Part shown: positions 1,406 through 46,064 of the stretch, piece after piece
Layout of the letters: each line of letters begins with the position of its first letter
Numbering within the stretch: position 1 is the first letter of the stretch
NCBI GenBank assembly: GCA_949152475.1
Contig: OX424569.1
Span: forward strand, 19,753,170-19,817,169
Length of the DNA stretch: 64,000 nucleotides
Source of the DNA: Terebella lapidaria
Lineage: Eukaryota > Annelida > Polychaeta > Terebellida > Terebellidae
Direction of reading: 5' to 3'
Program-made: the position numbers and the translations under genes
The notes under the pieces: generated by a model
Database searches by the model: none
Seen by the model: only the letters and a program-made list of their open reading frames with translations
Told to the model about the DNA's origin: nothing

Positions 1406-3227
1406 AAGGCATTTCAGCAGAAATGCCTTTATGGTTTTGTCAAAATTTTTTTTTTTCTTTTTTTTTTTTTTTTTCTTTTTTTTTCACTTTTTGGTTTCCG
1501 CACGATAACTTCAGTTTGCCTCGATGTATCTTCGCCAAATTTTCACTGCTGGTCAGAAATGTTGTGTGGAAGAGGCCTATTGTTTTTGAGCCGGCTCCGG
1601 GGTCCGTGAGGTCCGTGAGGATGAAATCAATGTTTCTGGTTTCCGCACGATAACTCAAAAAGTGTTATGGCAATGACTGTGGAACTTTGCATGGAGGTTC
1701 ATATATCACCAGGGAAGAAGCCTATTGATTTTGAGGCCGATTCGTCAAACGACCTTTGACCTAGGGCTCGAAATAATTTTAGCTGAGTCATCCTTGAGGC
1801 TCTCATGCATATCTCGGAAACGGTGCGTCGTAGAGCGAAACAGACGTTATTTTCAGACTCGTCATCCTAGACAAACATGTCTAAGGGGTATTATGGATGA
1901 CCTTTGACCTTGACCTTAAATTTTTTCGCTGAGTCGGCATTTTTCGTTTATGTCGATATCTCGGAAACGGTGCGTCGTAGAGCGAAACGGACATTATTTT
2001 CGGACTCGTCGCCCTAGACAAACATGTCTTAGGGGTATTATGGATGACCTTTGACCTTGACCTTAATTTTTTTTGCTGAGTCGGCATTTTCCGTATTCGT
2101 CGATATCTCGGAAACGGTGCGTCGTAGAGCGAAACGGACGTTATTTTCGGACTCGTCGCCCAAGACAAACATGTCTTAAGGGTATTATGGAGGACCTTTG
2201 ACTTTGACCTTAAATTTTTTCGCTGAGTCGGCATTTTTCGTTTTCGTCGATATCTCGGAAACAGTGCGTCATAGAGCGAAACGGACATTATTTTCGGACT
2301 CGTCGCCCTAGACAAACATGTCTTAAGGGTATTATTGATGACCATTGACCTTGACCTTAAATTTTTTCGCTGAGTCGGCATTTTTCGTTTTCGTCGATAT
2401 CTCGGAAACGGTGCGTCATAGAGCGAAACGGACGTTATTTTCGGACTCGTCGCCCTAGACAAACATGTCTTAAGGGTATCATGAATGACCTTTGACCTTG
2501 ACCTTAAATTTTTTCCCTGAGTCGGCATTTTTCGTTTTCGTCGATATCTCGGAAATGGTACGTCGTACAGCGAAACGGATGTTATTTTTGGACTCGTCGC
2601 CCCAGACAAACATGTATATAGGGTATTATGGATGACCTTTGACCTTCAATTTTTTTCGCTGAGTCGGCATTTTTCGTTTTCGTCGATATCTCGGAAACGG
2701 TGCGTCGTAGAGCGAAACGAGGTTATTTTCAGACTCGTCGCCCTAGACAAACATGTCTTAGGGGTATTATGGATGACCTTTGACCTTGACCTTAAATTTT
2801 TTCGCTGAGTCGGCATTTTTCGTTTTCGTCGATATCTCGGAAACGGTGCGTCGTAGAGCGAAACAGACGTTATTTTCGGACTCGTCGCCCTAGACAAACA
2901 TGTCTTAGGGGTATTATGGATGACCTTTGACCTTGACTTTAAATTTTTTCGCTGAGTCGGCATTTTTCGTTTTCGTCGATATCTCGGAAATGGTGTGTCG
3001 TAGAGCGAAACGGATGTTATTTTCGGACTCGTCGCCCTAGACAAACATGTACATAGGGTATGATGGATGACCTTTGACCTTGACCTTAAATTTTTTCGCT
3101 GAGTCGGCATTTTTCGTTTCCGTCGATATCTCGGAAACGGTCTCATTGGGAACTTATCATGTCAGCATTTTGTTTTTTTCATGCTTCACCCTGAAATGCC
3201 TCCAAGGCCTTTAGGCCTTGACGTCTA
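1406..3227 (+). mobile_element. Family C element C1 (HINE/Helitron-like), complete
   Basis: It begins AAGGCATTTCAGCAG and ends with the inverted match GAAATGCCT, a hairpin AAGGCC-TTTA-GGCCTT, then GACGT and CTAG before TT. A long T tract lies near 1447-1483. The core, about 1890-3110, is a tandem array of about ten units of roughly 126 bp with the phrases TGACCTTTGACCTTGACCT and ATATCTCGGAAACGG. It sits inside an A-family unit: the sequence before it and after it rejoins as continuous A sequence. Because 126 is divisible by three, the minus strand stays open for long stretches, but this is a repeat effect and not a recognised protein. Confidence 0.7.
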
Positions 3228-5332: not shown

Positions 5333-6981
5333 AACAAAGTTCGGAGGATACTATGGATTTACGATCGACACCCATGGCTTGTGAACGCTCTAGAAGTTGT
5401 CATTTTACAGGAATCACTACAATATTGAACAGGCTCGTTGAGCAATGCTCAGGCACGAAACCTATCGTTTTTCGGAAAGACTGAATAAATATTAATAAGT
5501 TCATGAGATAACTTATTACAACAATGTGAAATATCCAGTTTGAGATCTCTGATCATTCCAGTTGATTGATATCTGCAAACAAATCACACTGGACATGTGT
5601 ACAAATTTACAGTTGATGGTTTTGTGTGAAGAGATTACTTTTACTGAATAAGTTAACATAAATTTGAATAGTTTAACATTAGTTTTACTAGTTAAGTTTA
5701 TTACTGGCCACAATAAGAATAGTTAGGCAAAGAAACATTTATTATTGAGCTCAACGAGGTAAAGGTTGTGTCCAGTACTGACTTTATGGCTGCAGTACCA
5801 TTGATATTCGTGAATTAGTTAACATTAGTATTGCTAGTTAACATGGTTAGGTCTATTATTGAGCACAATAAAAATAGTTAAGGTAAGGGACATTTATTAT
5901 TGGGATCAATGAAGAAAAGGTTGTGTCCAGTAGTGATTTTATGGTGTAGTATCATTGATATTAATGAATAATTTAACATTAATTTGGCTAGTCAAATCTA
6001 TTATTGAGCACAATAAAAGTAGTTAAGGTGAGGAACATTTATTACTGGGCACATATTATGAGTTAAATTATAACTTGCGGAGAAAGTTTGATCTGGCTAC
6101 AATTTCGTCATCTTGAGATACAGTTTTGGCCAAATTTTACTTTGAATTTCAACTTGAAACCAAGTTTGACACAAATTATGAGTTAAAATATAACTTATGG
6201 TGAAAAGTTAGATCTGGCTCCAATTTCATCATCTTGAAATTCATTTTTGGTCAACTTTTACTTTGAATTTCAGTTTGAAACCAAGTTTGGCACATAATAT
6301 GAGTTAAAATCCAACTTATGGTGAAAAAGTTTGATCTGGCTCCAATTTCGTCATCTTGAAATGCAGTTTCGGTCAACTTTTACTTTGAATTTCAACTCGA
6401 AACCAAGTTTGGCACATATTATGAGTTAAAATAACGCATGGTGAAAAGTTTGATCTGGCTTCAATTTCGTCATCTTGAAATGCAGTTTTGGTCAACTTTC
6501 ACTTTGAATTTCAACTTGATACCAAGTTTTACACATATTATGAGTTAGAATATAACTTACGGTGAAAAGTTTGATTTGGCTCCAATTTTGTCATCTTGAA
6601 ATGCAGTTTCAACTTTTGCTTTGATTTTCAACTTGAAACCAAATTTGTCAAATATTCTGAGTTGAAATATAACTTTTGATGAAAACTTTTATCTGGCTGT
6701 AATTTCGTTATCTTATCGAACATGTTGAAATGGAAATTCATATGCACTGATTTCAGTGGTGACCTTGAATTTGACCTTCACTGACTTTGAAAGGTCAATG
6801 CAACAATTTTTGTGGGAAAAAAACAGTTTTGGCTTGAGCATGTTAGGATTTTACATTTCTCTGGTAATCATTTTAGCCCTTGCTCTAGTTTTTCACGCTT
6901 ATCAGTAGTATTTGGGGCGACAGGGATGATGGGGCCACGGGGGATACACCCAAGCGGTCGTAGGCGACCGGAAGCATCTAG
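5333..6981 (+). mobile_element. Family A element A2, complete and nested in A1
   Basis: It starts GTATCCCCCGAACAAAG and ends ...GGGGGATACACCC, then the hairpin CGGTCG/CGACCG, then CTAG. The core has two kinds of tandem unit. The first (about 5640-6050) is the GTTAAC-containing unit of A1. The second (about 6050-6720) is a unit of about 120 bp with the phrases AACTTTTACTTTGAATTTC and ATCTGGCTCCAATTTCGTC, repeated about five times. It is inserted at TATTATT|GACC of an A1 core unit, and A1 resumes with GACC after the CTAGTT. Confidence 0.65.
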
Positions 6982-9753: not shown

Positions 9754-12700
9754 AGGTTACCGGACCTATGGTCCGATAACCTATTGGCATGGTGTTGCGT
9801 CCGTCGTCGTCGTCGTCGTCGTCCACATTTTTATCTTTTTTGTTTACAGGCGAATTTTTCTGAAATTTTGCACAAAAATACTTAAAAATAATTCAAGAAG
9901 GAGGTATTTTTTAGTTTTTTTATTTTCGCATTTTTTTCAAAATGGCGGCTGTTTTCGACGAAAAATGCCTGATTTTGGACTTTGGCGGCCATTTTCTCAA
10001 AATCTGTTCAGTAACTTTTTTTCTTTTTGATAAATAACACTCCTCATATGTACTCCTATGATGTCTATAAATTTCGTTGCGCTTGAATCGCTCGAAGTGG
10101 GCCATTTTGGCCCAAACTCTGCTCAAATGGGACTTTCCCATGTTAAATTCTCCTATGCTTTATAATGGGACACATTATGCCTAATATCTCACTTGATATT
10201 GAGATTAGAGACTAGGAATCAATTGTGGACCTATAGGAAATGATATATGCTGAATATTCTCGTGACCTTGAATTTGACCTCTGACCTCACTTTCAAGGTC
10301 AGAGCACAAAATGGCTTATATCTCGCTTATTATCGACTCTACAGCTTAGGAATCAATTGTGGACATATAGGAAATGATATATTCTGAATATTCTCGTGAC
10401 CTTGAATTTGACCTCTGACCTCACTTTCAAGGTCAGAGCACAAAATGGCTTATATCTCGCTTATTATCGACTCTACAGCTTAGGAATCAATTGTGGACAT
10501 ATAGGAAATGATATATTCTGAATATTCTCGTGACCTTGAATTTGACCTCTGACCTCAGTTTCAAGGTCAGAGCACAAAATGGCTTATATCTCACTTATTA
10601 TCGACTCTACAGCTTAGGAATCAATTGTGGACATATAGGAAATGATATATGCTGAATATTCTGATGACCTTGAATTTGACCTTCGACCTCATTTTCAAGG
10701 TCACAGGACAAAATGGCTAATATCTCGCTTGTTATCGACTTTACAGCTTAGCAATCAATTATGAACATATAGGAAATGATATATGCAGATTTTTGTCATG
10801 ACCTTGAATTTGACCTTTGACCTCATTTTCAAGGTCACAGGACAAAATGGCTAATATCTCACTTATTATCGACTTTACAGTTTAGGAATCACTTGTGAAC
10901 ATATAGGAAATGATATATGCTGAATATTTTCATGACCTTGAATTTGACCCTGACCTCATTTCCAAGGTCACAGGACAAAATTGCTGATATCTCGCTTATT
11001 ATCGACTTTACAGCTTAGGAATCAATTGTGAACATATAGGAAATGATATATGCTGAATATTCTCATGACCTTGAATTTGACCTTTGACCTCATTTTCAAG
11101 GTTACAGGACAAATTGGCCAATATCTTGCTTATTAGCGACTTTACAGCTTAGGAATCAATTGTGAACATATAGGAAATGATATATGCTGAAAATTCTCGT
11201 GACCTTGAATTTGACCTTTGACCTCATTTTCAAGGTCACAGGACAAAATGGCCAATATCTTGCTTATCAGCGACTTAACAGCTTAGAAATCAATTGTGAA
11301 CATATAGGAAATGATATATGCTGAAAATTCTCATGACCTTGAATTTGACCTTTGACCTCATTTTGAAGGTCACATGACAAAATGGCTAAGATCTCGCTTA
11401 TTATCGACTTTACAGCTTAGGAATCAATTGTGAACATATAGGAAATGATATACGCAGAATATTCTCATGATCTTGAATTTGACCTTTGACCTCATTTCCA
11501 AGGTCACAGGACAAAATTGCTGATATCTCGCTTATTATCGACTTTACAGCTTAGGAATCAATTGTGAACATATGGGAAATCATATATGCTGAATATTCTC
11601 GTGACCTTGAATTTGACCTTTGACCTCATTTTCAAGGTCACAGGACAAAATGGCCAATATCTTGCTTATTAGCGACTTTACAGCTTAGGAATCAATTGTG
11701 AACATATAGGAAATGATATATGCTGAAAATGCTCATGACCTTGAATTTGACCTTTGACCTATTTTCAAGGTCACAGGACAAAATGGCCAATATCTTGCTT
11801 ATTAGCGACTTTACAGCTTAGGAATCAATTGTGAACATTTAGGAAATGATATATGCTGAAAATGCTCATGACCTTGAATTTGACCTTTGACCTATTTTCA
11901 AGGTCACAGGACAAAATGGCCAATATCTTGCTTATTAGCAACTTTACAGCTTAGGAATCAATTGTGAACATATAGGAAATGATATATGCTGAAAATGCTC
12001 GTGACCTTGAATTTGACCTTTGACCTATTTTCAAGGTCACAGGACAAAATGGCCAATATCTTGCTTATTAGCGACTTTACAGCTTAGGAATTAATTGTGA
12101 ACATATAGGAAATGATATATGCTGAAAATTCTCATGACCTTGAATTTGACCTTTGACCTCATTTTCAAGGTCAACAGGACAAAATGGCTAATATCTTGCT
12201 TATTATCGGCTTTACAGCTTAGGAATCAATTGTGAACATATAGGAAATGATATATTCTGAATATTTTAATGATATTGAATTTGACCTTTGACCTAAATTT
12301 CAAGGTCAGTCATTTTATTTTCAAAGTCAGATTACAAAATGGCTTATATCTCGCTTATTATCAAATTACAGCTTAGGGGTCCATAGTGAACATATAGGAA
12401 ATGATGTATGCTGAATAGTTTGGTGATCTAGAATTTAACCTTTGATCCCATTTTCACGGTTAGAGATATGGCGATTTCAGTGGTCACCTTGAATTTGACT
12501 TTCAACTTTCTCGGCTTAACTCTGTATATTTCTCCGGTAACCTTACTAGCCCATTGGGCTAATTTTTTAGTTTTTTTATTTTCGCATTTTTCTCAAAATG
12601 GCGGCCATTTTTGACGAAAAATTGTCAATTTTGGACTTTGGCGGCTATTTTCTCAAAAACTGTCTGATCAGTTTGAGATTTTTGTTTCAAAAGATTCCCC

Positions 12701-14021
12701 TTATGTACCTTTATGATGTGTATAAGTTTTGTTGCCCTTGAATCGCCGGTCTTCGTGTGGCGGCCATTTTGAATTTTTGACGGGTCGGCGAAAAAAAAAT
12801 TTTTTGTCCCAAATCGCGTTACTATCCATTTTGGGTCATTTCTAGACAAAAAAAAATTTTCACCCTTTGAAAAAAATTTTGGACTTAAAAAATTTTCGGC
12901 ACTTTTTCCTCTCATAATGAGAGCTGCTGGGACTGTACTCATATTACGCTTGAAGATAGACCTTAGATATTGGCACATTCAAATGGAAAGTCAACTATGG
13001 CGACTTGTGTGGTAACCTTGAATTTGACCTCGGATGACCTTCAAAGGTCAAAACAGCCATTTTTGGGTCGAGAAATGCTCAAATTTGCACCTGGCCTGTC
13101 TTTTCTCGAAAACTGTCTGATCAGTTTTGAGATTATTGTTTCAAAATATTCCCCTTATGTACCTTTATGATGTGTATAAGTTTCGTTGCCCTTGAATCGC
13201 CGGTCTCTGTGTGGCGGCCATTTCGAATTTTTGACGGGTCGGCGAAAAAAATTTTGTTTGCCCCAAATCGCGTTACTATTCATTTTGGGTCATTTCTAGA
13301 CAAAAAAAAAATTTTCACCCTTTGAAAAAAATTTTGGACTTAGAATATTTTCGGCACTTTTTTCCTTCATAATGGGAGCTGCCAGGACTGTACTCATAGT
13401 ACGCTTGAAGATAAAGCTTAGATATTGGCACTTTCAAATAGGAAGTCATATATAGCGAGTTGGGAGGTGACCTTGAATTCGACCTTTGATGACCTTGAAA
13501 GGTCAAAACAGCCATTTTTGGGTGAAAAAATGCCCAAATTTGCCTCTACAGATGAAATGCATGTATATAGAGCTTCAGTTTGCATAATGAACATATAGGA
13601 AGTCATATATGGAACAACTAATGATGACCTTGATTTTGACCTTGGATGACCTTGAGTGCTAAATGTCTGACATGAAATCTTGAAAGTGGCCTCTGAAGCA
13701 TAAACTTTTGCACATACAGGTAAGGATTGTGTATAAGCCTGTGAAAAAAGTCATGTATAAATGGCACATTTTTTGGTGACCTTGAACTTGACCTTAAAGA
13801 CCTTGAAGGGCGATTCTCAAAATCTGAAATTGGCCTCTACACACGAAATACTTGTTGATAAAACTTATATGTTTGTATTATGAACATACGAAGTCATATG
13901 CAGCATACCTTACGGTGACATTGAGATTCACAAAGATGACCTTGACTGGTAAATCTCAAAATCATATGTCACCTACAATGGACCAAAATGGTCCGGTAAC
14001 CTATCTTAGCCCTTGGGCTAA
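9754..14021 (+). mobile_element. Family B composite (two 3' ends) inserted in C2
   Basis: It starts AGGTTACCGGACC and folds back on GGTCCGATAACC. A CGTCGTC microsatellite lies at about 9800-9820. One 3' end (subterminal GGTAACC, hairpin AGCCCATTGGGCT, CTAA) is at 12562. The B body resumes in mid-sequence just after it, and a second 3' end (GTCCGGTAACCT, hairpin TTAGCCC-TT-GGGCTAA) lies at 14021. So this is one B element interrupted by, or recombined with, another. Rejoining is not unique because the insertion point is a T tract. Confidence 0.55.
10140..12480 (+). repeat. Family B core array, about 17 units of 134 bp
   Basis: The spacing of the word GGAAATGATATA is 134 bp at successive sites (10236, 10370, 10504). 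Each unit contains TGACCTTGAATTTGACCT, then CTGACCTCA or TTTGACCTCA, then TCAAGGTCA, followed by AGCTTAGGAATCAATTG. There are four AGGTCA-type half-sites per unit. In the later units the middle part is TGACCTTTGACCT, a perfect direct repeat with one-base spacing. The array shows local subfamilies, for example CTCTGACCTC first and CTTTGACCTC later. Confidence 0.85.
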
Positions 14022-15263: not shown

Positions 15264-17853
15264 TTTTCTTTTTTTTTCACTTTTTGGTTTCCGCACGATA
15301 ACTTCAGTTTGCCTCGATGTATCTTCGCCAAATTTTCACTGCTGGTCAGAAATGTTGTGTGGAAGAAGCCTATTGTTTTTGAGCCGGCTCCGAGGTCCGT
15401 GAGGATGAAATCAATGTTTCTGGTTTCCGCACGATAACTCAAAAAGTGTTATGGCAATGACTGTGGAACTTTGCATGGAGGTTCATATATCACCAGGGAA
15501 GAAGCCTATTGATTTTGAGGCCGATTCGTCAAACGACCTTTGACCTAGGGCTCGAAATAATTTTAGCTGAGTCATCCTTGAGGCTCTCATGCATATCTCG
15601 GAAACGGTGCGTCGTAGAGCGAAACAGACGTTATTTTCAGACTCGTCATCCTAGACAAACATGTCTAAGGGGTATTATGGATGAACTTTCACCTTGACAC
15701 GAAATTTTTTTGCCGAGTCGGCATTTTTCGTTTTCGTCGATATCTCGGAAACGGTGCGTCGTAGAGCGAAACGGACGTTATTTTCGGACTCGTCGCGCTA
15801 GTCAAACATGTCTAAGGGGTATTATGGATGAACTTTGACCTTGACCCCAAATTTTTTTGCCGAGTCGGCATTTTTCGTTTTCGTCGATATCTCGGGAACG
15901 GTGCGTCGTAGAGCGAAACGGACGTTATTTTCGGACTCGTCGCCCTAGACAAACATGTCTAAGGGGTATTATTGATGAACTTTGACCTTGACCCGAATTT
16001 TTTTTGCCGAGTCGGCATTTTTCGTTTTCGTCGATATCTCGGAAACGGTGCTTCGTAGAGCGAAACGGACGTTATTTTCGGACTCGTCGCCCTAGACAAA
16101 CATGTCTGAGGGGTATTATGGATGAACTTTGACCTTGACCCGAAATTTTTTTGCCGAGTCGGCATTTTTCGTTTTCGTCGATATCTCGGGAACGGTGTGT
16201 CGTAGAGCGAAACGGACGTTATTTTCGGACTCGTCGCCCTAGACAAACATGTCTAAGGGGTATTATGGATGAACTTTGACCTTGACCCGAAATTTTTTTG
16301 CCGAGTCGGCATTTTTCGTTTTCGTCGATATCTCGGGAACGGTGCGTCGTAGAGCGAAACGGACGTTATTTTCGGACTCGTCGCTCTAGACAAACATGTC
16401 TAAGGGGTATTATTAATGAACTTTGACCTTGACCCAAATTTTTTTTGCCGAGTCGGCATTTTTCGTTTTCGTCGATATCTCGGAAACGGTGCTTCGTAGA
16501 GCGAAACGGACGTTATTTTCGGACTCGTCGCCCTAGACAAACATGTCTGAGGGGTATTATGGATGAACTTTCACCTTGACACGAAATTTTTTTGCCGAGT
16601 CGGCATTTTTCGTTTTCGTCGATATCTCGGAAACGGTGCGTTGTAGAGCGAAACGGACGTTATTTTCGGACTCGTCGCCCTAGTCAAACATGTCTAAGGG
16701 GTATTATGGATGAACTTTGACCTTGACCCCAAATTTTTTTGCCGAGTCGGCATTTTTCGTTTTCGTCGATATCTCGGGAACGGTGCGTCGTAGAGCGAAA
16801 CGGACGTTATTTTCGGACTCGTCGCCCTAGACAAACATGTCTAAGGGGTATTATTGATGAACTTTGACCTTGACCCGAATTTTTTTTGCCGAGTCGGCAT
16901 TTTTCGTTTTCGTCGATATCTCGGAAACGGTGCTTCGTAGAGCGAAACGGACGTTATTTTCGGACTCGTCGCCCTAGACAAACATGTCTGAGGGGTATTA
17001 TGGATGAACTTTGACCTTGACCCGAAATTTTTTTGCCGAGTCGGCATTTTTCGTTTTCGTCGATATCTCGGGAACGGTGCGTCGTAGAGCGAAACGGACG
17101 TTATTTTCGGACTCGTCGCCCTAGACAAACATGTCTAAGGGGTATTATGGATGAACTTTGACCTTGACCCGAAATTTTTTTGCCGAGTCGGCATTTTTCG
17201 TTTTCGTCGATATCTCGGAAACGGTGCGTCGTAGAGCGAAACGGACGTTATTTCCGGACTCGTCGTCCTAGACAAACATGTCTAAGGGGTATTATTGATG
17301 AACTTTGACCTTGCCCAAAATTTTTTTGCCGAGTCAGCATTTTTCGTTTTCGTCGATATCTCGGGAACGGTGTGTCGTAGAGCGAAACGGACGTTATTTT
17401 CGGACTCGTCGCCCTAGACAAACATGTCTTAAGGGTATTATGGATGAACTTTGACCTTGACCCGAAATTTTTTTGCCGAGTCGGCATTTCTCGTTTTCGT
17501 CGATATCTCGGGAACGGTGTGTCGTAGAGCGAAACGGACGTTATTTTCGGACTTGTCGCTGTAGACAACATTTATCTTATATGTATTATGGATGAACTTT
17601 GACCTTGACTAAAAAATTTTTTGCCGAGTTGGCATTTTTCGTTTTCGTCGATATCTCGGAAACACTGAGTCGTAGAGCGAAACAGACTTTTTTTTCGGAC
17701 TCGTCGCCCTAGACAAACATGTCTAAGGGGTATTATTTTAACGGTAAATTTTTTTGCGGAGTCGACATTTTTCATTTTCGTCGATATCTAGTATATATAA
17801 ATTAATCATCACACCGAAATGCCTCCAAGGCATCTTTAGGCCTTGACGTCTAG

Positions 17854-22811: not shown

Positions 22812-24425
22812 AGGTTACCGGACCTATGGTCCGATAACCTATTGGCATGGCGTTGCGTCCGTCGTCGTCTTCGTCGTCCACATTTTTATCTTTTTTGTTT
22901 ACGGGCGAATTTTTCTGAAATTTTGCACAAAAATACTTAAAAATAATTCAAGAAGGAGGTACTTTCTAGTTTTTAGATTTTCGCATTTTTTTCAAAATGG
23001 CGGCCGTTTTTGACGAAAAATGCCTGATTTTGGATGGTCCGATAACCTATTGGCATGGCGTTGCGTCCGTCGTCGTCTTCGTCGTCCACATTTTTATCTT
23101 TTTTGTTTACGGGCGAATTTTTCTGAAATTTTGCACAAAAATACTTAAAAATAATTCAAGAAGGAGGTACTTTCTAGTTTTTAGATTTTCGCATTTTTTT
23201 CAAAATGGCGGCCGTTTTTGACGAAAAATGCCTGATTTTGGACTTTGGCGGACATTTTCTCAAAATCTGTTCAGTAACTTTTTTTCTTTTTGATACATAA
23301 GATTCCTCATATGTACTCCTATGATGTCTATAAATTTTGTTACGCTTGAATCGCTCGAAGTGCGCCATTTTGGCGCAAACTCGGCCCAAATGGGACTTTC
23401 CCATGTTAAATTCTCCTATGCTTTATAATGGGACACATTATGCCTAATATCTCACTTGATATTGAGATTAGAGACTAGGAATCAATTGTGGACATATAGG
23501 AAATGATATATGCTGAATATTCTCGTGACCTTGAATTTGACCTCTGACCTCAGTTTCAAGGTCAGAGCACAATATGGCTTATATCTCGCTCATTATCGAC
23601 TCTACAGCTTAGGAATCAATTGTGGACATATAGGAAATAATATATGCTAAATATTCTCGTGACCTTAAACTTGACCTCTGACCTCAGTTTCAATGTCAGA
23701 GCACAAAATGGCTTATATCTCGCTTATTATCGACTCTACAGCTTAGGAATCAATTGTGGACATATAGGAAATGATATATGCTGAATATTATGATGACCTT
23801 GAATTTGACCTTCGACCTCATTTTCAAGGTCACAGGACATAATGGCTAATATCTTGCTTGTTATCGACTTTACAGCTTAGCAATCAATTATGAACATATA
23901 GGAAATGATATATGCAGATTATTGTCATGACCTTGAATTTGACCTTTGACCTCATTTTCAAGGTCACAGGACAAACAGGCTAATATCTGACTTATTATCG
24001 ATTTTACAGCTTAGGAATCAATTGTGGACATATAAGAAATGATATATGCTGAATAGTCTCGGGACCTTGAATTTGACCTCTGACCTCATTTTCAAGGTCC
24101 AAGGACAAACTGGCTCATATCTTGCTCCTCTATTGACTGTATGGCTTAATAATCAATTGTGGACATGATATAGAAAATGATATACATTGAATATTTTGAT
24201 GACCTTGAATTTGACCTTTGCCCCTTTATTTTCAAGGCCACAGCACAAAATTGCTAATATCTCTCTGATTATTGAATTTACAGCTTAGCAATCAACTGTG
24301 GACATGATATATGCTTAATGTTATATATGCTGAATATTCTCTTGACCTTGAATTCAACCAGTGACCTGGCTAACATCTAAAATATTAAACATTGTCCGGT
24401 AACCTATCTTCGGCCCTTGGCCTAA
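22812..24425 (+). mobile_element. Family B element B3 with a 208-bp tandem duplication
   Basis: It runs from AGGTTACCGGACC to the 3' end GTCCGGTAACCTATC with hairpin GGCCCTTGGCC and CTAA. The 5' block is duplicated: the sequence starting at 22827 recurs from 23035 nearly unchanged, so two identical 60-residue frames appear there by chance. About seven core units follow at 23450-24350. Confidence 0.6.
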
Positions 24426-25022: not shown

Positions 25023-25433
25023 ACCGCCATTTTTGCTTGGCAGCTTTGGATTTTGGTTCCCGGTGAATTCGTAGAATTTAGTCTGCAAACTAGACTTTTG
25101 CGATATATTCTTGCGGAATTTCACTTGCCACGTTCATAGACATCGTTTTGTGTCTATTTGGATAAGTATTGGTCGATAGTTTGTTACTTGCTAGATCGTC
25201 AGCGATTTGTATAGCCAGTTCACCCTATTATCGTCCATCCGTCGTACTTGATAGTGTACTTGTTGTTTACATCTATCAATAGTTCTACGTTATTTTTCTA
25301 CTGTATATATTGTGTATACGTATACTGTAGTTTATATATTCGTAGTCCTCTTAGGGTTCTTTTTCAGCGTGGTCTCAGGTTTGCGTATTTTGCCCGCCCT
25401 GTTACTGTGTGTGGTTAGTTCCCTTTCGTGATC
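25023..25433 (+). promoter_or_regulatory. DIRS 5' leader before ORF1
   Basis: This 411-bp region between the left ITR and the ORF1 ATG has no long open frame. It should contain the promoter or leader of the element, by position. I see TATATATTGTGTATACGTATAC at about 25302 but cannot say that it is a TATA box. Confidence 0.35.
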
Positions 25434-27538
25434 ATGGCTTCACAATCCTCCCTTGGTACCGGTGCCATGGACGAACGTCCATGCCCGAAGTGTCTGGTCA
25501 ATACCCTCCGAGGAGGGGAGAAACACAGTGTGTGTTTCGACTGTTTAGACCATGGCCCGGTATCTATGGAGGATTTGAGGTGTGATCTGTGCCGTTTCTG
25601 GCGTCCCTCTTCCTTCGTGCAGGCGACTGCAAAGTATTCCGAAGCCTCGTTGGCTCGTCGGGATGCTTTGAGGCTTGCGGAAGCTTCGGCTCCGCAAGTC
25701 CGCCAGTCGCCCATGGAGGTGGAGACTCCGCCTGTGACGGCACAGATTGCGTCCGGTGTTAGCCAGCCCCTGGGGCTAACACAGGACATGGTCAACGCGG
25801 CTGTGCAATCCTTCTTTGCACAGTCGTTATCGTCCCTTCAGGGTACCCTCCTGCCGGGTCTCTCTTCCCTGCTTGGACAGGGAGTCCCGGCCGGTTCTTC
25901 GGCTGCCCCTTCGTCGCAGGGAGAGCTTGCTCCCCCTGCTGGCAAGAAGTCGAAATCTTCTAAGAAGAAGGTTTCAGTTCTTGCCAAGGCGAAAGCAGCC
26001 AAGGAACCGCACTCCACCTTCGTCGTCCCTCAGTCGGGGCCGATCGAGGTGGAGGGGTCCGTCGTCTCTTCCCCTGGGCCTTCCAAGAAGAGGAAGCGTG
26101 CTTCCTCTAAGCGCCGTGGTGCTGAGACCACATCGATTTTCGATGTGGCTCAGGCTTCGTCCGACCTCTCGGTGGGCGACGATCAGGCTTCGGGCTTCGA
26201 TCGGCGGAGCATCTTGGATGGCTCATTCGGGTCCTCGGTCTCGAGGTTCGAGGGGGAAGAGTTCCCTTTGTTTCGGGGTGAGGCTCTCGATCGTTCGTGC
26301 GATCGGGAGTCTTCACTTGGCGGTCGTGCTCCTGGTCCTCGATCAGGGCACGATCGGGCGGGTGGTGCTGGGGCCGTTCCTCAGGACCACTCAAGTCCTG
26401 TGTACGCGGATGTAAGTCGCCGGACGGGCGCGATCGCTGAGCAGGCATTCCCTCGCCCGTCCTTTGATGTACCCTTGGGGTCATCGAGGTCTTCGATCGG
26501 ACCTGTGAGGTCCAACGATCGGGGGGGGTCGAGTGGAAGCTGATCAGGAGTCGTCCTCCTCGGAGGATGAGACTTCCGATCAGGCCGGGGGTTCTAACTT
26601 CCGGTGGGCTTTGGAGTCGGTCGCAAGGCGAATGGACTTGCCGATCGATGCTCCAGGGCCCTCACGGGGAACCGGTAGGTTCGCGTCGGCGCCAGTTCGT
26701 CGGCCGATCCGGCTCCCTGTGGCTCCCGCGTTAGTCAAGTCCTTCGACAAGATCAACAAGGGAGTTACGGCTAAGAAGGATGTGGCTCGTACGGAGTCGA
26801 CATTCCCGACTAGCCGTGTTCGACCTGAGTCGATCGACACCTATCGGACTGTAGAGTCCGAGGGTGGACATCAGACTTCCGTCCCGGTCGAAGACCCTAA
26901 CCTTCACCTGCTTTCCCGGAAGCAGGGTACGGTCTGGTCAGCTTATGTGAAAAAGGCTCGCCTTTCTCACTGGCAGACGCTGTCTCATCAATTGATGGGG
27001 CAGCTCTCGTTGACGGATCACCTGACCACTTTGGTTTTTTGTGGAGTTTGTGGACGAGGCGGATCTGGAGGAGGGGAGTCGCGCCAACATTCATGCAGCA
27101 CTCGGCGTCTTGGCCGGAGTGGTCCATGCTGCTGAGCGTGACAGTGCGCACCTGGGCGCACAATTGGATCTCACCATGCGTGATGCCGATCTCCGTCTGC
27201 TCGACGTGTCCGCTACGGACGTCGCTGAGCTACGTGGGAGGCCGCTTTTCTCAGGCTATACCTACGCCAACCTCTCTCGATCGGATATTTCTGTCATGCG
27301 GGAACATCTCCGGGATGAGGCTATGGCCAAGGCTTTGCTTGGGAAGTCGGCGGGGTCTGGGACAGGCAAGAAGACCAAGGGTCAGAAGCCTGCCCAACCT
27401 CAGGCACCACATGCACCCGCTTCTACGCAGCCGCCCTTTCGGGGGGCGCTGCCTCCCCCTCCCCAGGGGGATGGCAAGCGTGGAGGCAAAGGGGGTGGAC
27501 GCTTCAAGGGCAAAGGGAAAGCTTCTGGTAAGAAGTGA
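25434..27538 (+). pseudogene. DIRS ORF1 (gag-like), broken by two homopolymer frameshifts
   Basis: ORF1 of DIRS elements is thought to be a gag-like nucleic-acid-binding protein. The ATG at 25434 opens a frame with a cysteine cluster near residues 14-50 (CPKC, CFDC, CDLC), which may bind zinc, then Ser/Lys-rich low-complexity sequence. That frame stops at 26543. The next frame (to 27135) continues an acidic, Ser-rich part; the switch point is a run of 8 G at 26521-26528. A second switch lies at a run of 6 T at 27035-27040, after which a third frame runs to the stop at 27536-27538 and ends in a Gly/Lys-rich tail. Both breaks look like one extra base in a homopolymer. They may be real inactivating mutations or sequence errors. 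The whole would be about 700 residues. Confidence 0.7.
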
Positions 27539-29645
27539 CTCGTTGCGGGAAAGCGTAGGCTCTGTGGAAGGTTCAGTTCTGTCGGAATTCGATCTTCCAC
27601 AACCTGGTCCAGTCGGGGGACGCCTGGCTCAGTTCGTCCGGAACTGGAGCGATCTGGCGTCGTCAGACAATTCAGTCGTGGCATGGGTGAAGTGCGGTCT
27701 CACCTTCAGATGGGAGGCTGGAAAACCACCGATCAGACCCAAAGCATGGTTCTTCCCTGTGCCCGGCGATCGGGAAAAGTTTCAGCTTCTGCAGCACGAG
27801 GTGCAGCAGTTGCTAGAGAAACGTGCGATCGAGGTGGTCAAGGACGAGAGAGGATTCTATTCTCTCATCTTCCTAGTGCCGAAAAAGACAGGCTGGTGGC
27901 GTCCCGTTTTCGATCTGTCAAACCTCAACAAATTCCTGATCATACCCAGGTTCAAGATGGAGTCGGCGCTTTCCGTCCAGAAAGCTCTGTCCAAGGGGAA
28001 GTGGGCAGTCAGTATCGACGTCAAGGACGCGTACTTACATGTGCCAATACACCCAGCCGATCGGCGATACCTCAAGTTCGCCTTCGAGGGTTCGGTGTAT
28101 CAGTTCAGGGTACTTCCTTTTGGAGTAGCCACCGCCCCTTACGTGTTCACCCGTATCGTAAGGACGATGGCAGCCAGGTTTCGATCGGTTGGAATTCAAT
28201 TCCACCATTATATCGACGATTGGTTAATCATAGCCGACTCCCCGTCTCAGGCTATAGAGCAATCCGGGTTCGTCCTCAGGTTGGCGACCAGCCTTGGCTG
28301 GATCCCCAATTGGGCGAAGTCTCATCTGTCCCCGACACAGAGGTTCGAGTATGTCGGGGTAGATTACGATCTAGAGCGAGGAGTAGCTCTTCCTCCGCGG
28401 AAGAGAGTTCTCAAGGCGATTGCGGCGATGGAGGTCGCGCTGACGCAGTCGTCGATCACAGCTCGACAGTTTCTGTCCATCATCGGTCTGTTGGCGTCGA
28501 TGGAGAAACAGGTGCCGTTCGGCAGGTGCTTCCTCAGACCCATTCAATGGTGTCTAGCGTTGCAATGGCGGATCCTCACCGATCGACTAGACCAAGTCGT
28601 ATCGGTGGACGATCGTGCTCGGGAAGCAATGCATTGGTGGCGGGACCATCGGAATCTTTTCCGAGGGATGCCACTGGCGGAGTATCTGCCCGATCGGACC
28701 TTCTTCACCGATGCGTCAGAATTGGCTTGGGGAGCTCATATGGACGAGCACGAACTCTCTGCTGTGTGGAACACGAGCGAGAGGGCGTTGCACATCAATG
28801 TCCTAGAGCTGCGAGCGGTGAGACGTGCGTTCGAGATCTGGGGGCCTCAGAGTCCCCCAGGGACGAAGTGGTTGGTCTTCACAGACAACAGCACAGTAGT
28901 GGCGCACATAAACAAACAAGGTGGAACTCGCTCGAGTCAGCTTTGTTTGGAGGCCGAGTGTCTGATCAGGTTTGCCTTCAAGTACCGTCTGTTTATCAGG
29001 ACGAGGCACCTGCCGGGTCACAGGAATGTCCTAGCGGACACTCTGTCGAGACCGGACAAGATCATAGGCACGGAGTGGAGTCTGCATCCGGGGGTGTTTC
29101 GGCGCGTTTGTCAGGCGTTCGGGACACCGAACATAGATCTGTTCGCAACCTCTCGGAATCACAAGCTCCCGGTCTACTTCTCACCTCTGCCAGAGAGCGA
29201 GGCACTGGCTGTGGACGCGATGTCTCAGTCGTGGGACGGGATGTTCGGGTATGCGTACCCGCCAACTCGGTTCCTAACAGAAGTGCTGCACAAAGTAGCC
29301 AGGTCTCAGTGCGAGATTCTGTTGGTGGCGCCATGCTGGCCGATGCAGGCGTGGTTCCCCCTGCTACTGTCCCTCCTGATCGATGTACCACGGGTTCTCC
29401 CGATCGAGGACAGGTTGCTGAAGCAACCGGGGCGGGATATATTTCACGATTCCGTCCACGTGCTCAAATTACACGTGTGGAGGCTATCGAGCGATCCTTC
29501 CAGGAGGCAGGATTTTCTCAGCAGGTGTCCGTACATCTCGCGAGAAAGAATAGGAGATCCTCCTCTAAAACGTATGAGGCTAAATGGAGAGTATTCGTAC
29601 GTTGGTGTAACGGAAGGCGCATTGATCCGCTCTCTGCCCCTCTGA
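27471..29645 (+). CDS. DIRS reverse transcriptase / RNase H with Dam-like C-terminal region
   Basis: The protein copies the element RNA into DNA. The reverse transcriptase has RPVFDLSNLN, SIDVKDAYLHVPI (first catalytic Asp), LPFGVATAPYVF and the YIDD box at 28209-28220. RNase H follows with TFFTDAS, the Glu of VLELRAV, the Asp of FTDNSTV and the late Asp of LADTLSR, so the D-E-D-D set is present. After it, about 29125-29400, comes IDLFATSRNHKLP ... YAYPPTRF ... LLVAPCWPMQAW, which resembles the Dam-type methyltransferase region of DIRS elements; its YPPT replaces the canonical (D/N)PP(Y/F), so activity is doubtful. The ATG at 27471 is chosen because it overlaps the ORF1 end by 68 bp; the frame is open further upstream, but that part lies over ORF1. 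No stop or frameshift interrupts the catalytic domains. Confidence 0.88.
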   Translation: MASVEAKGVDASRAKGKLLVRSDSLRESVGSVEGSVLSEFDLPQPGPVGGRLAQFVRNWSDLASSDNSVVAWVKCGLTFRWEAGKPPIRPKAWFFPVPGDREKFQLLQHEVQQLLEKRAIEVVKDERGFYSLIFLVPKKTGWWRPVFDLSNLNKFLIIPRFKMESALSVQKALSKGKWAVSIDVKDAYLHVPIHPADRRYLKFAFEGSVYQFRVLPFGVATAPYVFTRIVRTMAARFRSVGIQFHHYIDDWLIIADSPSQAIEQSGFVLRLATSLGWIPNWAKSHLSPTQRFEYVGVDYDLERGVALPPRKRVLKAIAAMEVALTQSSITARQFLSIIGLLASMEKQVPFGRCFLRPIQWCLALQWRILTDRLDQVVSVDDRAREAMHWWRDHRNLFRGMPLAEYLPDRTFFTDASELAWGAHMDEHELSAVWNTSERALHINVLELRAVRRAFEIWGPQSPPGTKWLVFTDNSTVVAHINKQGGTRSSQLCLEAECLIRFAFKYRLFIRTRHLPGHRNVLADTLSRPDKIIGTEWSLHPGVFRRVCQAFGTPNIDLFATSRNHKLPVYFSPLPESEALAVDAMSQSWDGMFGYAYPPTRFLTEVLHKVARSQCEILLVAPCWPMQAWFPLLLSLLIDVPRVLPIEDRLLKQPGRDIFHDSVHVLKLHVWRLSSDPSRRQDFLSRCPYISRERIGDPPLKRMRLNGEYSYVGVTEGALIRSLPL

Positions 29646-30544
29646 ATGCAGTGCTAGACTTTCTCTGCTATCTCTTTGATAGGCTTAATTTGAAGCCTAC
29701 TACGATCGAGGGATACAGGTCCATGCTGGGCCCTGTATTCCGTGCTAGGGGGATCGATTTAACTAATAATCGTATCCTTGCTGATCTCTTGGCGTCCTTT
29801 AGGACGCAAAGGCCACGCGGAGTTCCTACTCTACCGGATTGGGACATGGCTTTTGTGCTATATTGTCTTACTAAAGCACCTTGGGAGCCTCTCAAGGAAG
29901 TTTCCTTGCAGAGGTTAACTCTTAAGACTTTCTTGCTAGTTATGCTAGCAAGTGGTCGAAGACGCTCGGATGTCGCGGCGATCGACGTATCGCGAGTCGC
30001 ATTTGGCGCGGATGGGTCCGTTTCCTTATACCCAGTACGTGATTTTATGCCTAAAACACGTGCTGCAGTTGAGGGCGGGAAAGCGTTCTCCCCTATCGTA
30101 ATTCCGTCACTGGGCGGTTACGTAGGACGGAATGAGCCGGACGCTCTATTGTGCCCGGTAAGAGCGCTGAAAATCTACATCGATCGTACCAGATCGATCA
30201 GGAAAGATCGCAAGCGATTATTTATTTCCTATCAGCCTAATAGGGCTACGGATATCTCCACAGCTACACTATCCCGATGGGTGAAGGTTGTAGTGAGGAC
30301 TGTCTATGCGGAATCAGGTGCTGACGATCGAGTCACTTACAAAATATCGTCCCACCAAATCCGACACATCTCGATGTCTTTGGCGGCCAGGTCGAATATT
30401 CCGTTGGAATATATCGTGAGGGCTGGAATGTGGACTAATTCTACGACATTCATCGGGTTCTATCTGTCCAATGCTGCCGAACTTCAGGACCAGTCGTCCA
30501 GATTTAGACTGGGTCCGCTGGTCGTAGCGCAAGCTGTTGTTTGA
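27683..30544 (+). CDS. DIRS tyrosine recombinase (C-terminal domain real; long overlap with RT)
   Basis: The product should integrate the circular DNA form without target duplication. The recognisable recombinase lies at about 29460-30540. It has SGRRRSDV with the first catalytic Arg at about 29960, the HxxR box (HQIR) at 30353-30364, the Trp of AGMW and the nucleophile Tyr in GFYLSN at 30461-30463. All key residues are present. The frame is open from 27683, so it overlaps RT by about 1.96 kb. The upstream half is Ser/Arg/Gly-rich with no domain and may be a shadow of RT. The true start is therefore uncertain: it may lie near 29400 or be reached by another route. Extensive RT/recombinase overlap is known from DIRS-1. 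Confidence 0.85.
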   Translation: MGEVRSHLQMGGWKTTDQTQSMVLPCARRSGKVSASAARGAAVARETCDRGGQGRERILFSHLPSAEKDRLVASRFRSVKPQQIPDHTQVQDGVGAFRPESSVQGEVGSQYRRQGRVLTCANTPSRSAIPQVRLRGFGVSVQGTSFWSSHRPLRVHPYRKDDGSQVSIGWNSIPPLYRRLVNHSRLPVSGYRAIRVRPQVGDQPWLDPQLGEVSSVPDTEVRVCRGRLRSRARSSSSSAEESSQGDCGDGGRADAVVDHSSTVSVHHRSVGVDGETGAVRQVLPQTHSMVSSVAMADPHRSTRPSRIGGRSCSGSNALVAGPSESFPRDATGGVSARSDLLHRCVRIGLGSSYGRARTLCCVEHEREGVAHQCPRAASGETCVRDLGASESPRDEVVGLHRQQHSSGAHKQTRWNSLESALFGGRVSDQVCLQVPSVYQDEAPAGSQECPSGHSVETGQDHRHGVESASGGVSARLSGVRDTEHRSVRNLSESQAPGLLLTSARERGTGCGRDVSVVGRDVRVCVPANSVPNRSAAQSSQVSVRDSVGGAMLADAGVVPPATVPPDRCTTGSPDRGQVAEATGAGYISRFRPRAQITRVEAIERSFQEAGFSQQVSVHLARKNRRSSSKTYEAKWRVFVRWCNGRRIDPLSAPLNAVLDFLCYLFDRLNLKPTTIEGYRSMLGPVFRARGIDLTNNRILADLLASFRTQRPRGVPTLPDWDMAFVLYCLTKAPWEPLKEVSLQRLTLKTFLLVMLASGRRRSDVAAIDVSRVAFGADGSVSLYPVRDFMPKTRAAVEGGKAFSPIVIPSLGGYVGRNEPDALLCPVRALKIYIDRTRSIRKDRKRLFISYQPNRATDISTATLSRWVKVVVRTVYAESGADDRVTYKISSHQIRHISMSLAARSNIPLEYIVRAGMWTNSTTFIGFYLSNAAELQDQSSRFRLGPLVVAQAVV

Positions 30545-35221: not shown

Positions 35222-36535
35222 TCAAATATACATAAAACACATTACCAATATTTGTATACGATGGTGAAATAAAACACTTGACTGGTATTTGTATATGATG
35301 GTGAAATAAAATACGTGACTGGTATTTGTGTACGATGGTGAAATAAAACACCTGACTGGTATTTGTATACGATGGTAAAATAAAACACCAGACTGATATT
35401 TGTATACAATGGTGAAATAAAACACCTAACTGGTATTTGTATACGATGGTGAAATAAAACACCAGACTGGTATTTGTATACGATGGTAAAATAAAACACC
35501 AGACTGGTATTTGTATATGATGGTAAAATAAAACACCAGACTGATATTTGTATACAATGGTGAAATAAAACACCTAACTGGTATTTGTATACAATGGTGA
35601 AATAAAACACCTAACTGGTATTTGTATACGATGGTGAAATAAAACACCTGACTGGTATTTGTATACGATGGCGAAATAAAACACCTGACTATTATTTGTA
35701 TACGATATACGGATAATTGTATACGATAGCAAAATAAAACACCTGACTGATATTTGTATACGATGGTGAAATAAAACACCTGACTGGTATTTGTATATGA
35801 TGGTGAAATAAACACCTGACTGGTATTTGTATACAATGTGAAATAAAACACCTGACTGGTATTTGTATACGATGGTGAAATAAAACACCTGACTGATATT
35901 TGTATACGATGGTGAAATAAAACACCTGACTGGTATTTGTATATGATGGTGAAATAAACACCTGACTGGTATTTGTATACAGTGTGAAATAAAACACCTG
36001 ACTGGTATTTGTATACGATGGTGAAATAAAACACCTGACTGGTATTTGTATATGATGGTGAAATAAACACCTGACTGGTATTTGTATACAATGTGAAATA
36101 AAACACCTGACTGGTATTTGTATACGATGGTGAAATAAACACCTGACTGGTATTTGTATACGATGGTGAAATAAAACACCTGAATGATATTTGTATACGA
36201 TGGTGAAATAAACACATGACTGGTGTTTGCATAAGATAGTGAAATAAAACACCTGACTGGTATTTGTATACGATGGTGAAATAAACACCTGACTGGTATT
36301 TGTATACGATGGTGAAATAAAACACCTGAATGATATTTGTATACGATGGTGAAATAAACACATGACTGGTGTTTGCATAAGATAGTGAAATAAAACACCT
36401 GACTGGTATTTGAATACAATGGTAAAATAAAACACCTGACTGATATTTGTATACGACGTGAAATAAAACACTTGACTGATGTTTGTATATGATGGTGAAA
36501 TAAAACACCTGACTGGCTATTTGTATATGATGTGG
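35222..36535 (+). repeat. Minisatellite, 37-bp unit, about 35 copies
   Basis: The unit reads GGTGAAATAAAACACC then TGACTGGTATTTGTATACGAT. Some units lose one or two bases (AAATAAACACC) or carry ACAATG in place of ACGATG. Higher-order blocks repeat, for example 36180-36245 and 36320-36385. Because 37 is not a multiple of three, all three minus-strand frames pass through the same units and stay open for up to 381 codons; these are artefacts. Confidence 0.9.
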
Positions 36536-36668
36536 AAATGTGATTCTTTCTTGAAACTTGTGTTCTATCAATAGTTATTTCCTGGGCTCATGAAAATGTG
36601 ATTCATACATATTCCACTGTATCTCTACATGTAGATTTTAATGTTTTCCTTTATATATTTTTTTGTAG

Positions 36669-37155: not shown

Positions 37156-38707
37156 AGGTTACCGGACTTTTGGTCCGATAACCTATTGCCGTGGCGTTGC
37201 GTCCGTCGTCGTCGTCGTCCGTCGTCGTCCGTCTACATTTTTATCTTTAAAGTTTACGATCGAATCTTTCTCAAATTTTGCACAAAAATGCCTAAAAATA
37301 TTTCGAGAGGGAGGTATTTTTTAGTTTTTTGATTTTGGCAATTATTTCAAAATGGCGGCCGTTTTCGTCTAAAAATGGCCAATTTTGGACTTTGGCTGTC
37401 GTTTTCTCAAAATCTGTTCAGTAACTTTTTTTCTTATTCATGCATAACACTCCTCATATGTACCTCTGTGACATGTATAAATTTCGTTGCCCTTGAATCG
37501 CTCGAAGTGGGCCATTTTGGGCCCAAACTCGGCCCAAATGGGACTTTCCCATGTTAAATTCTCCTATGCTTTATAATGGGACACATTAAGCCTAATATCT
37601 CACTTAATATTGAGATTAGAGACTAGGAATCAATTGTGGACATATAGGAAATGATATATGCTGAATATTGTCGTGACCTTGAATTTGACCTTTGACCTCA
37701 TTTTCAAGGTCACAGGACAAAATGGCTAATATCTCGCTTATTATCGACTTTACAGCTTAGGATTCAATTGTGAACATATAGGAAATGATATATGCTGAAT
37801 TTTCTCGTGACCTCGAATTTGACCTTGACCTCATTTTCAAGGTCACATGACAAAATGGCTAATATCTCGCTTATTATCGACTTTACAGCTTAGGAATCAA
37901 TTGTGAACATATAGGAAATGATATATGCTGAATATTTTTGTGACCTTGAATTTGACCTTTGACCTCATTTTCAAAGTCACAGGACAAAATGGCCAATATC
38001 TTGCTTATTAGTGACTTTACGCCTTATGAATCAATTGTGAACATATAGGAAATGATATATGCTGAATATTCTAGTGACCTTGAATTTGACCTTTGACCTC
38101 ATTTTCAAGGTCAACAGTACAAAATGGCTAATATCTTGCTTATTATCAACTTTACAGCTTAGGAATCAATTGTGAACATATAGGAAATGATATATTTTGA
38201 ATATTCTCATGAACTTGAATTTGACCTTTGACCTAAATTTCAAGGCCAGTCATTTTATTTTCAAGGTCAGAATACAAAATGGTTTATATCTCTCTTATTA
38301 TCAAATTCACAGCTTAGGGGTCTATAGTGAACATATAGGAAATGATGTATGCTGAATATTTTGGTGATCTAGAATTTGACCTTTGATCCAATTTTCTAGG
38401 TCAGAGAACAAAATGGCTAATATGTCGCTTATTATCATCTTTACAGCTTCGGAATCAATTGCGAATATAGAGGAATGATATATACTGAATCTTTTCATGA
38501 ACTTGAACTTTGACCTCATTTTCTAGGTCACATCACCGATCACAGAATGGCTAATATCTCACTTATTATCGACTTTACAGCTTAGGAATTTATTGTGGAC
38601 ATACTAGAAGTGATATATTTGTTGCAAAATTATTTTCAAGGTCACTGCCAAAAGGCTAATATCTAAAATGTATATTGTCCGGTAACCTTTCTTAGCCCTT
38701 GGGCTAA
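37156..38707 (+). mobile_element. Family B element B5, complete
   Basis: It starts AGGTTACCGGAC, has a CGTCGTCGTC tract, about eight core units (37620-38640) with TGACCTTTGACCTCA, then GTCCGGTAACC, hairpin AGCCCTTGGGCT and CTAA. It begins only about 60 bp after the donor of CTC1-like exon 4. Confidence 0.7.
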
Positions 38708-41700: not shown

Positions 41701-41945
41701 AGAGCACAAAATGGTTTAATATCTCGCTCATTATTACTTCACAGCTTGGGAATCAATTGTGGACATATAAGAAATGATATATACTGAATATTCTCGTGAC
41801 CTTGAATATGACCTTTGATCTCATTTTCAAGGTCAGAGCACAAAATGGCGCATATCTCACTTGTTGCCATATTTACAACTTAAGAATCAATTGTGGACAT
41901 ATAGGAAATGATTATGCTGAATATACTTGTGGCCTTGTAGTAACC
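38708..41945 (+). mobile_element. Family B elements B6 (fragment) and B7, with C3 inside
   Basis: A B5'-block fragment (38708-38810) lacks its tip and stops at a T tract, CATTTTT. There B7 starts at 38811 with AGGTTACCGG. B7 has a disturbed body with a second partial body block at about 39205-39400. Its core is split by C3 between GACCTTGAATT and TGACATTTGACC. It continues from 41674 and stops near 41908, where the 809-bp duplicated segment begins. Confidence 0.5.
39835..41673 (+). mobile_element. Family C element C3, nested in B7
   Basis: It starts AAGGCATTTATGG, lacking part of the usual 5' palindrome, with a T tract and two repeats of the block around GATTTTGGGAT. About seven core units with TTTGACCTTGACCCGAAA follow. 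It ends CCGAAATGCCT, hairpin AAGGCATCTTTAGGCCTT and CTAG. The B core sequence is continuous across it. Confidence 0.65.
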
Positions 41946-45947: not shown

Positions 45948-46064
45948 GTGAGAGTGGCTCCAATCATTTTTGATGTATGGTGAAATATCTGCCATAATGA
46001 TTGATTTGAAACAACTTAATAATGGAATTCCTGGTATTATATTCCACGCACCATCGTATTGCAG

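Follow-up and report, generated by a model that had tools for sequence, protein, structure and literature searches.

The window considered here, i.e. the whole stretch of 64,000 nt (contig OX424569.1, 19,753,170-19,817,169) that was analysed out of the 761.6-Mb, 438-contig genome of Terebella lapidaria, contains many arrays of tandemly repeated units, designated B, C and D. One of the B arrays forms the core of an element whose parts follow each other in the order 5' subTIR and inverted copy, CGTC microsatellite, left flank, core array, terminal motif, 3' subTIR and palindrome. The parts located for the element starting at 9754 are reported below; the last of them is its probable end.

9754-9782, forward strand: 5' subTIR AGGTTACCGGACC, then its inverted copy GGTCCGATAACCT (window matches, shuffles)
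9800-9824, forward strand: left-flank CGTCGTC microsatellite (read from the sequence)
9996-10110, forward strand: part of the left flank, showing homology with the beginning of the D unit (alignment, D query)
10177-12308, forward strand: B array, 134-bp unit repeated 15.9 times, 93% matches, hexamer cluster TGACCTTGAATTTGACCTTTGACCTCATTTTCAAGGTCA
12343-12463, forward strand: last B-like module, degenerate, without intact hexamer
12475-12502, forward strand: 3'-terminal motif copy TTTCAGTGGTCACCTTGAATTTGACTTT, 30 bases ahead of the 3' subTIR
12533-12562, forward strand: 3' subTIR TCCGGTAACCT and palindrome TAGCCCATTGGGCTA

The 5' subTIR with its inverted repeat was matched nine times in the window at up to three mismatches, the copy at 9754-9782 included, and never in shuffled sequences. 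CGTC runs follow 11 of 12 tip-like matches, the twelfth (11099) being a chance match within the B array. The 3' subTIR followed by a short palindrome was found nine times in the window, and 15 times when the window was combined with a random 250-kb sample, made up of 25 stretches of 10 kb (out of 60 drawn) located within 12 contigs with partly estimated lengths. T runs flank both tips outside the ends, as read at the insertions themselves; HINE-type elements are expected to insert between T residues, without target-site duplication. A genome search with the first 361 bp of the element returned at least 40 matches (40 scored of 745 candidates, own copy included), 99-100% identical and distributed over many contigs, which points to recent spread; two of the copies (L002 and L007) have different flanks and six units. 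At another site of the window, a perfect 208-bp tandem duplication (22826-23242) takes in part of the 5' tip and the microsatellite.

A previous sequence-only reading had described the interval 10140-12480 as a dense array of nuclear-receptor-type half-sites. Counting bears this out, as 59 hexamers (44 TGACCT and 15 AGGTCA) were found in the interval, compared to a mean of 1.14 and a maximum of 6 in 500 dinucleotide shuffles. The several hundred hexamers estimated by eye for the window turned out to be 351 (276 TGACCT and 75 AGGTCA; mean 27.8 and maximum 40 in 100 shuffles), so that the excess over the shuffled control is overwhelming at both scales. No hexamer of the window is more over-represented than AGGTCA (12.4-fold by first-order Markov ratio), and the extended half-site TGACCTTGA/TCAAGGTCA, also pointed out in that reading, occurs 150 times. 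Within the B array, the perfect DR1 TGACCTNTGACCT was correctly described as present in many units, being found in 14 of 17 anchored stretches (11 as TGACCTTTGACCT, 3 as TGACCTCTGACCT). The figure of about four hexamers per unit applies to 11 of the 17 stretches; five contain three, and the last one (12391) contains none. In the window, TGACCTTTGACCTTGACCT, TGACCTTGAATTTGACCT and TGAAAGGTCA are present 11, 41 and 6 times, respectively.

The remaining B, C and D units of the window, together with two motif modules associated with different cores, are the following.

1809-3141, forward strand: C array, 147-bp unit, TGACCTTTGACCTTGACCT type
6721-6821, forward strand: motif module close to the 3' end in an element whose core is a different one (121/155 bp), E = 6.5e-10
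12652-13546, forward strand: two D units of ~455 bp each, motif type TGACCTTGAATTTGACC..TGACCTT.AAAGGTCA
15593-17736, forward strand: C array, 147-bp unit, TRF consensus TGAACTTTGACCTTGACCC, one intact hexamer
23440-24354, forward strand: B array
37592-38618, forward strand: B array
39469-39832, forward strand: short B array
40496-41400, forward strand: C array, one-hexamer subfamily (TGAACTTTGACCTTGACCC type)
50343-50440, forward strand: motif module after a 121-bp array similar to that of the element with the 6721-6821 module, E = 2.1e-6
53423-55272, forward strand: C array, TGACCTTTGACCTTGACCT type
56080-56960, forward strand: two more D units (D query)
59386-61171, forward strand: B arrays
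62242-63675, forward strand: B array with a 155-bp terminal unit

Of the 351 hexamers of the window, 322 fall within regions recovered with the B, C and D unit queries; B arrays are picked up by the D query as well, so that this assignment does not distinguish B from D. The C cores had been described as carrying the hexamer motif, which is the case for the TGACCTTTGACCTTGACCT-type arrays but not for a subfamily which reads TGAACTTTGACCTTGACCC and has a single hexamer left. A C-type array from elsewhere in the genome (L010, 9297-10000; 147 bp, 4.8 units, 91%) has a TRF consensus without any hexamer. The related statement, that different families keep the motif while neighboring bases vary, is therefore true of the D spacers, but does not extend to the C subfamilies, which lose the motif. 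Spacings between hexamers are not confined to the DR0-DR5 range for which a check had been proposed: in the window, DR1 is found 54 times, DR6 48, ER15 36, DR13 35, ER8 34 and DR0 16. A preference for DR1-type spacing was rejected, since DR6, DR13, ER8 and ER15 are of the same order; the spacings follow the architecture of the units.

Exact motif counts were extended to the whole genome, on both strands, by using each pattern read backwards as a control. The 9-mers TGACCTTGA/TCAAGGTCA occur 364,916 times (control 5,590), the perfect DR1 TGACCTNTGACCT 79,598 times (control 228) and TGACCTTGAATTTGACCT 72,919 times (control 0). ACAGCTTAG, a 9-mer of the B unit located outside the motif, is also in excess, with 82,439 occurrences against 3,301, so that much of the motif excess is explained by the abundance of the elements. 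In the random sample, matches to the B, C and D queries cover 13,920 of 250,000 bases, and this fraction holds 61 of 64 TGACCTTGA sites, all 13 DR1 and 142 of 253 hexamers. Outside DNA of these classes the hexamer rate is 0.54/kb (200-kb sample), compared to a Markov expectation of ~0.48/kb. The genome thus carries ~365,000 exact extended half-sites of the ERR/NR5 type, and nearly all those sampled lie within these elements: motif density should not be taken for selection.

The sequence-only reading had left two possibilities, namely that the motif is selected because a host factor binds it, or that the core is simply of common descent, and this interpretation is supported in part. Our results show descent in the case of B and D and suggest it for C and D. 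B and D units align beyond the motif, with a local score of 46 (shuffle maximum 32) and an upstream global p of 0.002, the D query finds B units with E down to 1.9e-6, and the left flank of the B element aligns with the start of the D unit. By these alignments, B and D units share descent beyond the motif, and an independent origin of the motif in the two is rejected by the homology of their flanks. For C and D, common descent is suggested by a downstream alignment (p = 0.0025, one of two passes among the seven pairs subjected to unit homology tests). Between B and C, nothing detectable is shared outside a 13-bp motif (p = 0.43 and 0.74). A module of ~100 bp containing TGACCTTGAATTTGACCT is also found after arrays whose 121-bp cores are different, and TGACCTTGA, allowing one mismatch, lies less than 150 bp away from 13 of 15 3' ends, compared to 5% of random windows; the 15 ends are related and do not represent independent events. 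Hexamers would therefore be shared between families largely through descent from one ~100-bp module, placed just inside the 3' end of the elements, likely including that of an autonomous partner. The homology and the position of the module are shown, and it would have been amplified in tandem and then dispersed by transposition; the amplification step is the inferred part of this sequence of events. Receptor-like spacings such as DR1 may be by-products of the 18-bp block TGACCTTGAATTTGACCT and of local duplication of TGACCTT.

Substitutions were counted on whole units, leaving out identical rows and units below 85% coverage. Equal rates inside and outside the hexamers, together with no excess over shuffles, had been indicated as evidence against the idea of a functional motif; the two parts of this test diverge, because rates are alike over whole units but the excess is overwhelming. 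For 116 distinct B units, changes per column are 4.0 in the hexamers and 4.84 in the rest (p = 0.21, circular shift 0.17), or 4.69 and 4.26 outside CpG/TpG/CpA columns; for 50 distinct C units they are 2.39 and 2.34. A first, unweighted count had suggested selection in B (0.045 vs 0.093, circular shift 0.04) and not in C (0.105 vs 0.073), but the B signal faded in the tree-based count without identical rows. Further sets of B units, filtered at 80% coverage (12 of 19 kept in a hold-out set, 15 of 20, 27 of 39 and 56 of 63 in the others), gave hexamer ratios between 0.70 and 0.82, which did not reach significance at the 0.05 level (lowest p 0.0535). The 12 hold-out units show no extra conservation (ratio 0.82, p = 0.35), the 18-mer ranking 55 of 115, and the slowest block over whole B units, ACATATAGGAAATGATATAT, lies elsewhere. 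Hexamer-specific selection inside the arrays was thus not found over whole units, while a modest effect remains in the module, represented by 101 alignment columns.

The module set includes B, D and older types; after removal of rows below 80% coverage, 106 of 134 were kept, 104 of them distinct. Rates are 0.051 in the hexamers vs 0.071 for all distinct copies (p = 0.03, shift 0.01), 0.043 vs 0.062 for the B-like copies (p = 0.04, shift 0.02) and 0.071 vs 0.131 for the D-like and older copies, a set of 24 related rows (p = 0.0014, circular shift 0.03). The 18-bp block ranks first among 84 windows of the pooled module (4.78 vs 7.16 upstream), first in the D-like/older set and third in the B-like set. 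Conservation is not limited to the hexamers, as the TGAATT linker is as conserved as they are (p = 0.41), and two slow blocks are recognizable in the module, one in the AGTCATATATG area and the other corresponding to the 18-mer.

Copies were also ordered by using a profile built on the upstream part only, 3 of 110 matches being left out; the profile is not fully blind to the motif, because its rows had originally been found with the whole module. In 28 copies with upstream identity below 0.75 the motif is 0.85-0.86 identical, in 29 middle copies it is 0.877 identical against 0.837 upstream, and in 50 recent ones 0.937 against 0.943; these are fixed-offset values, and a best-offset variant favours the motif more. 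The low upstream identity of old copies partly reflects one single split, between B and D. This rate pattern fits constraint on the source elements and neutral decay of the inserted copies, which after insertion would change much like ordinary DNA. On the time scale of families, no part of the module changes more slowly than the 18-bp block, which therefore probably has a cis function for the transposon; it would most likely act in 3'-end recognition, replication or element expression.

A candidate source for the module is a family encoding a Rep protein. On this side, where PF14214 was the only protein domain searched for, Helitron_like_N has at least 150 matches in the genome (150 scored of 234 candidates), many of them in frames of ~2,300 aa. 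One Rep-bearing locus, L056, has a 3' end TCCGGTAACCTTTCTAGCCCTTGGGCTAA, with GGACCTTGAATTTGACCTTCAAT ahead of it. B-like DNA comes after this end, and the Rep-bearing element thus seems to be inserted into a B element. Between the end of the Rep frame and this 3' end no 5' tip was found at up to one mismatch; the 5' tips of the present elements are of the AGGTTACCGG type. A second Rep-bearing flank (L055) has no such 3' end within its 6 kb. A 281-bp query made from the L056 end gave at least 40 matches (40 scored of 332 candidates), 31 at full length and 89-100% identical. Placed against 30 of the 150 Helitron_like_N rows, 26 of the 40 lie less than 25 kb downstream of a same-strand domain, 19 of them at 6.2-7.3 kb, and 14 have no domain upstream among the rows compared; the letters of the end were read in one copy. 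From this arrangement we infer that the Rep-bearing family is the likely autonomous partner of the HINE-like elements, on the 3'-end side, and that the core module may stem from its 3'-subterminal region. The satellite core of HINE-like elements could then be traced back to a module situated close to the 3' end in a Rep-encoding family, a connection that the available text of the oyster work (PMC7492417) does not make.

The explanation that we favour, and consider probable with some reservation, is that very abundant HINE-like, non-autonomous Helentrons have the B and D satellites as their tandem cores, that the C-core elements, which have other tips and were examined by eye only, are also non-autonomous rolling-circle elements, and that the module has spread by descent, with a cis role for its 18-bp block. 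The motif-bearing segment would likely be a conserved cis-module of the transposon. A module devoid of function, over-represented only through element abundance, would account for the whole-unit rates, alike inside and outside the hexamers, for the large excess of the non-motif 9-mer, and for hexamer rates near the Markov expectation outside B, C and D DNA. We consider descent alone rather unlikely, because no window changes more slowly than the motif block in either the pooled or the D-like module, because this block keeps 85% identity in copies whose upstream DNA matches the pooled consensus at 55-63%, and because it recurs near the 3' ends of elements with different cores. That a hairpin or cruciform structure preserves the inverted arms TGACCTTGAA...TTCAAGGTCA could be imagined from the perfect 10-bp arms of the B consensus and from the 7+2+7 palindrome TGACCTTGAAAGGTCA of D; it is very improbable, as out of 1154 cells in the 116 distinct B units 4 are compensatory, compared to 74 which are broken and 24 which are G-T. 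Selection for a hairpin was rejected in these units for lack of covariation.

Binding of the arrays by host receptors, either ERR/NR5 monomers on TCAAGGTCA or HNF4/RXR on DR1, with the motif kept through chromatin opening or expression in the germ line or early embryo, appears doubtful, somewhat more so than descent alone. It draws on the genome-wide number of perfect extended half-sites and on 65 zf-C4 matches in the genome, nuclear receptors being animal proteins; among the DNA-binding domains encoded are some nearest to solved ERR, NR5A2/SF-1, HNF4-alpha and RXR structures. The TGA extension which follows the first hexamer has rates of 0, 0 and 0.04 in the 24 D-like/older copies, compared to 0.23-0.29 in the next spacer, and in the pooled module the mean rate of columns T1, G2, A3 and T6 is 0.024 in one hexamer and 0.032 in the other, compared to 0.065 in A/T columns outside. 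The C4/C5 columns of the first hexamer correspond to the GG of AGGTCA, which has a part in receptor contact. These columns, however, evolve at 0.087 in the pooled module, against 0.086 in C columns outside (second hexamer 0.068), and at 0.109-0.114 in D-like copies, against 0.157. Moreover, the hexamers are not slower than the linker, DR6, DR13 and ER8 are comparable in number to DR1, the C subfamilies lose hexamers, and the 3' copy beside the L056 Rep frame has GGACCT at the first hexamer site. Constraint on TTGAATTTGA would favour a transposon signal, while constraint on the GG and TCA of AGGTCA would favour receptors. Receptor use of the motifs is thus possible but unproven. A narrower version, in which TCAAGGTCA sites close to the 3' end of a Helentron lineage would let it use a host ERR/NR5-type orphan receptor as its activator in germ line or early embryo, the platform being then multiplied into arrays, is improbable. 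If true, the ~365,000 TCAAGGTCA sites in the 762-Mb genome would be enough for a receptor sink, and genes near insertions may be wired to an ERR/NR5-type receptor. Whether a host receptor uses transposon-borne sites becomes a directly testable question.

The favoured rolling-circle reading has a close parallel in the Pacific oyster, where the Cg_HINE elements are non-autonomous Helentrons with satellite-like central repeats, having a consensus of 138-181 bp (PMC7492417). As far as the available text of that paper describes them, they have in common with the present elements the 5' subTIR with complementary inverted repeat, the left-flank microsatellite, central tandem repeats, 3' subTIR and palindrome, as well as related flanks with different cores and short conserved segments common to otherwise different monomers. 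The comparison with B, C and D units is by described layout, and the main text of the paper does not contain the letters TGACC. In that text the oyster elements could not be linked to autonomous ones, whereas here a Rep-bearing family has the same 3' end and module.

Caenorhabditis Helitrons containing heat-shock elements (PMC6927752) are alike in being rolling-circle elements, with dense clusters which hold a large share of the genomic copies of one transcription factor-like motif; according to the portion of the paper available, HSF-1 binding was shown there, whereas here the motif is known from its sequence alone. Repeats multiplying AGGTCA-type half-sites are also described, in the accessible parts of the reports, for Alu with HNF4 (PMC3252374) and with DR2 (PMC1785376), and for mouse SINE B1 with NR5A2 (PMC11102866). 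These are SINEs and not rolling-circle elements, and receptor binding is reported for HNF4/Alu (PMC3252374) and NR5A2/B1 (PMC11102866); the two cases and that of HSF-1 on Helitrons (PMC6927752) are the parallels favouring receptor binding. The bivalve satellites BIV160/Cg170 have two conserved monomer motifs; the layout with two slow blocks seen here is at most a lead towards them. A literature search covering few subscription papers found none joining a Helentron with a nuclear receptor; the combination of Helitron and half-site returned an unrelated viroid paper alone, and no title among those listed concerned receptor sites in mollusc satellites.

Viral relatives were considered and rejected. 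A 19-mer was found in five viral contigs with one shared context and a 20-mer in one, with 0.47-1.36 hexamers/kb, and a 26-mer query found no match in viral contigs; by eye, the matched contigs look like phage coding sequence. The D profile gave one weak match on them, in L031 (E = 0.00047), which does not extend beyond ~31 bases at the position of the 19-mer.

Other features were noticed in the window. A GC-rich retroelement at 25428-30544 resembles a DIRS-type element: one of its frames encodes a reverse transcriptase (PF00078, 1.5e-22), and another, overlapping it, weakly matches a phage-type integrase (PF00589) at 3.3e-4, which is below cut-off. A 37-bp minisatellite of ~35 copies (35249-36539) has minus-strand open frames of up to 381 aa. 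Direct repeats of 809 bp, 99.1% identical and ~2.2 kb apart (41908-42716 and 44903-45711), are perhaps the terminal repeats of a 3.8-kb element. A frame of 343 aa (46059-47090) has a borderline match to the telomere-maintenance protein CTC1 (9.4e-7, just under cut-off). A 5S rRNA-like piece at 57745-57825, which scores 32.9 bits with RF00001 (gathering score 38, not reached), directly follows a broken D unit, and a second 5S-like stretch, recognized by eye, is located ~750 bases beyond it, at ~58510-58560.
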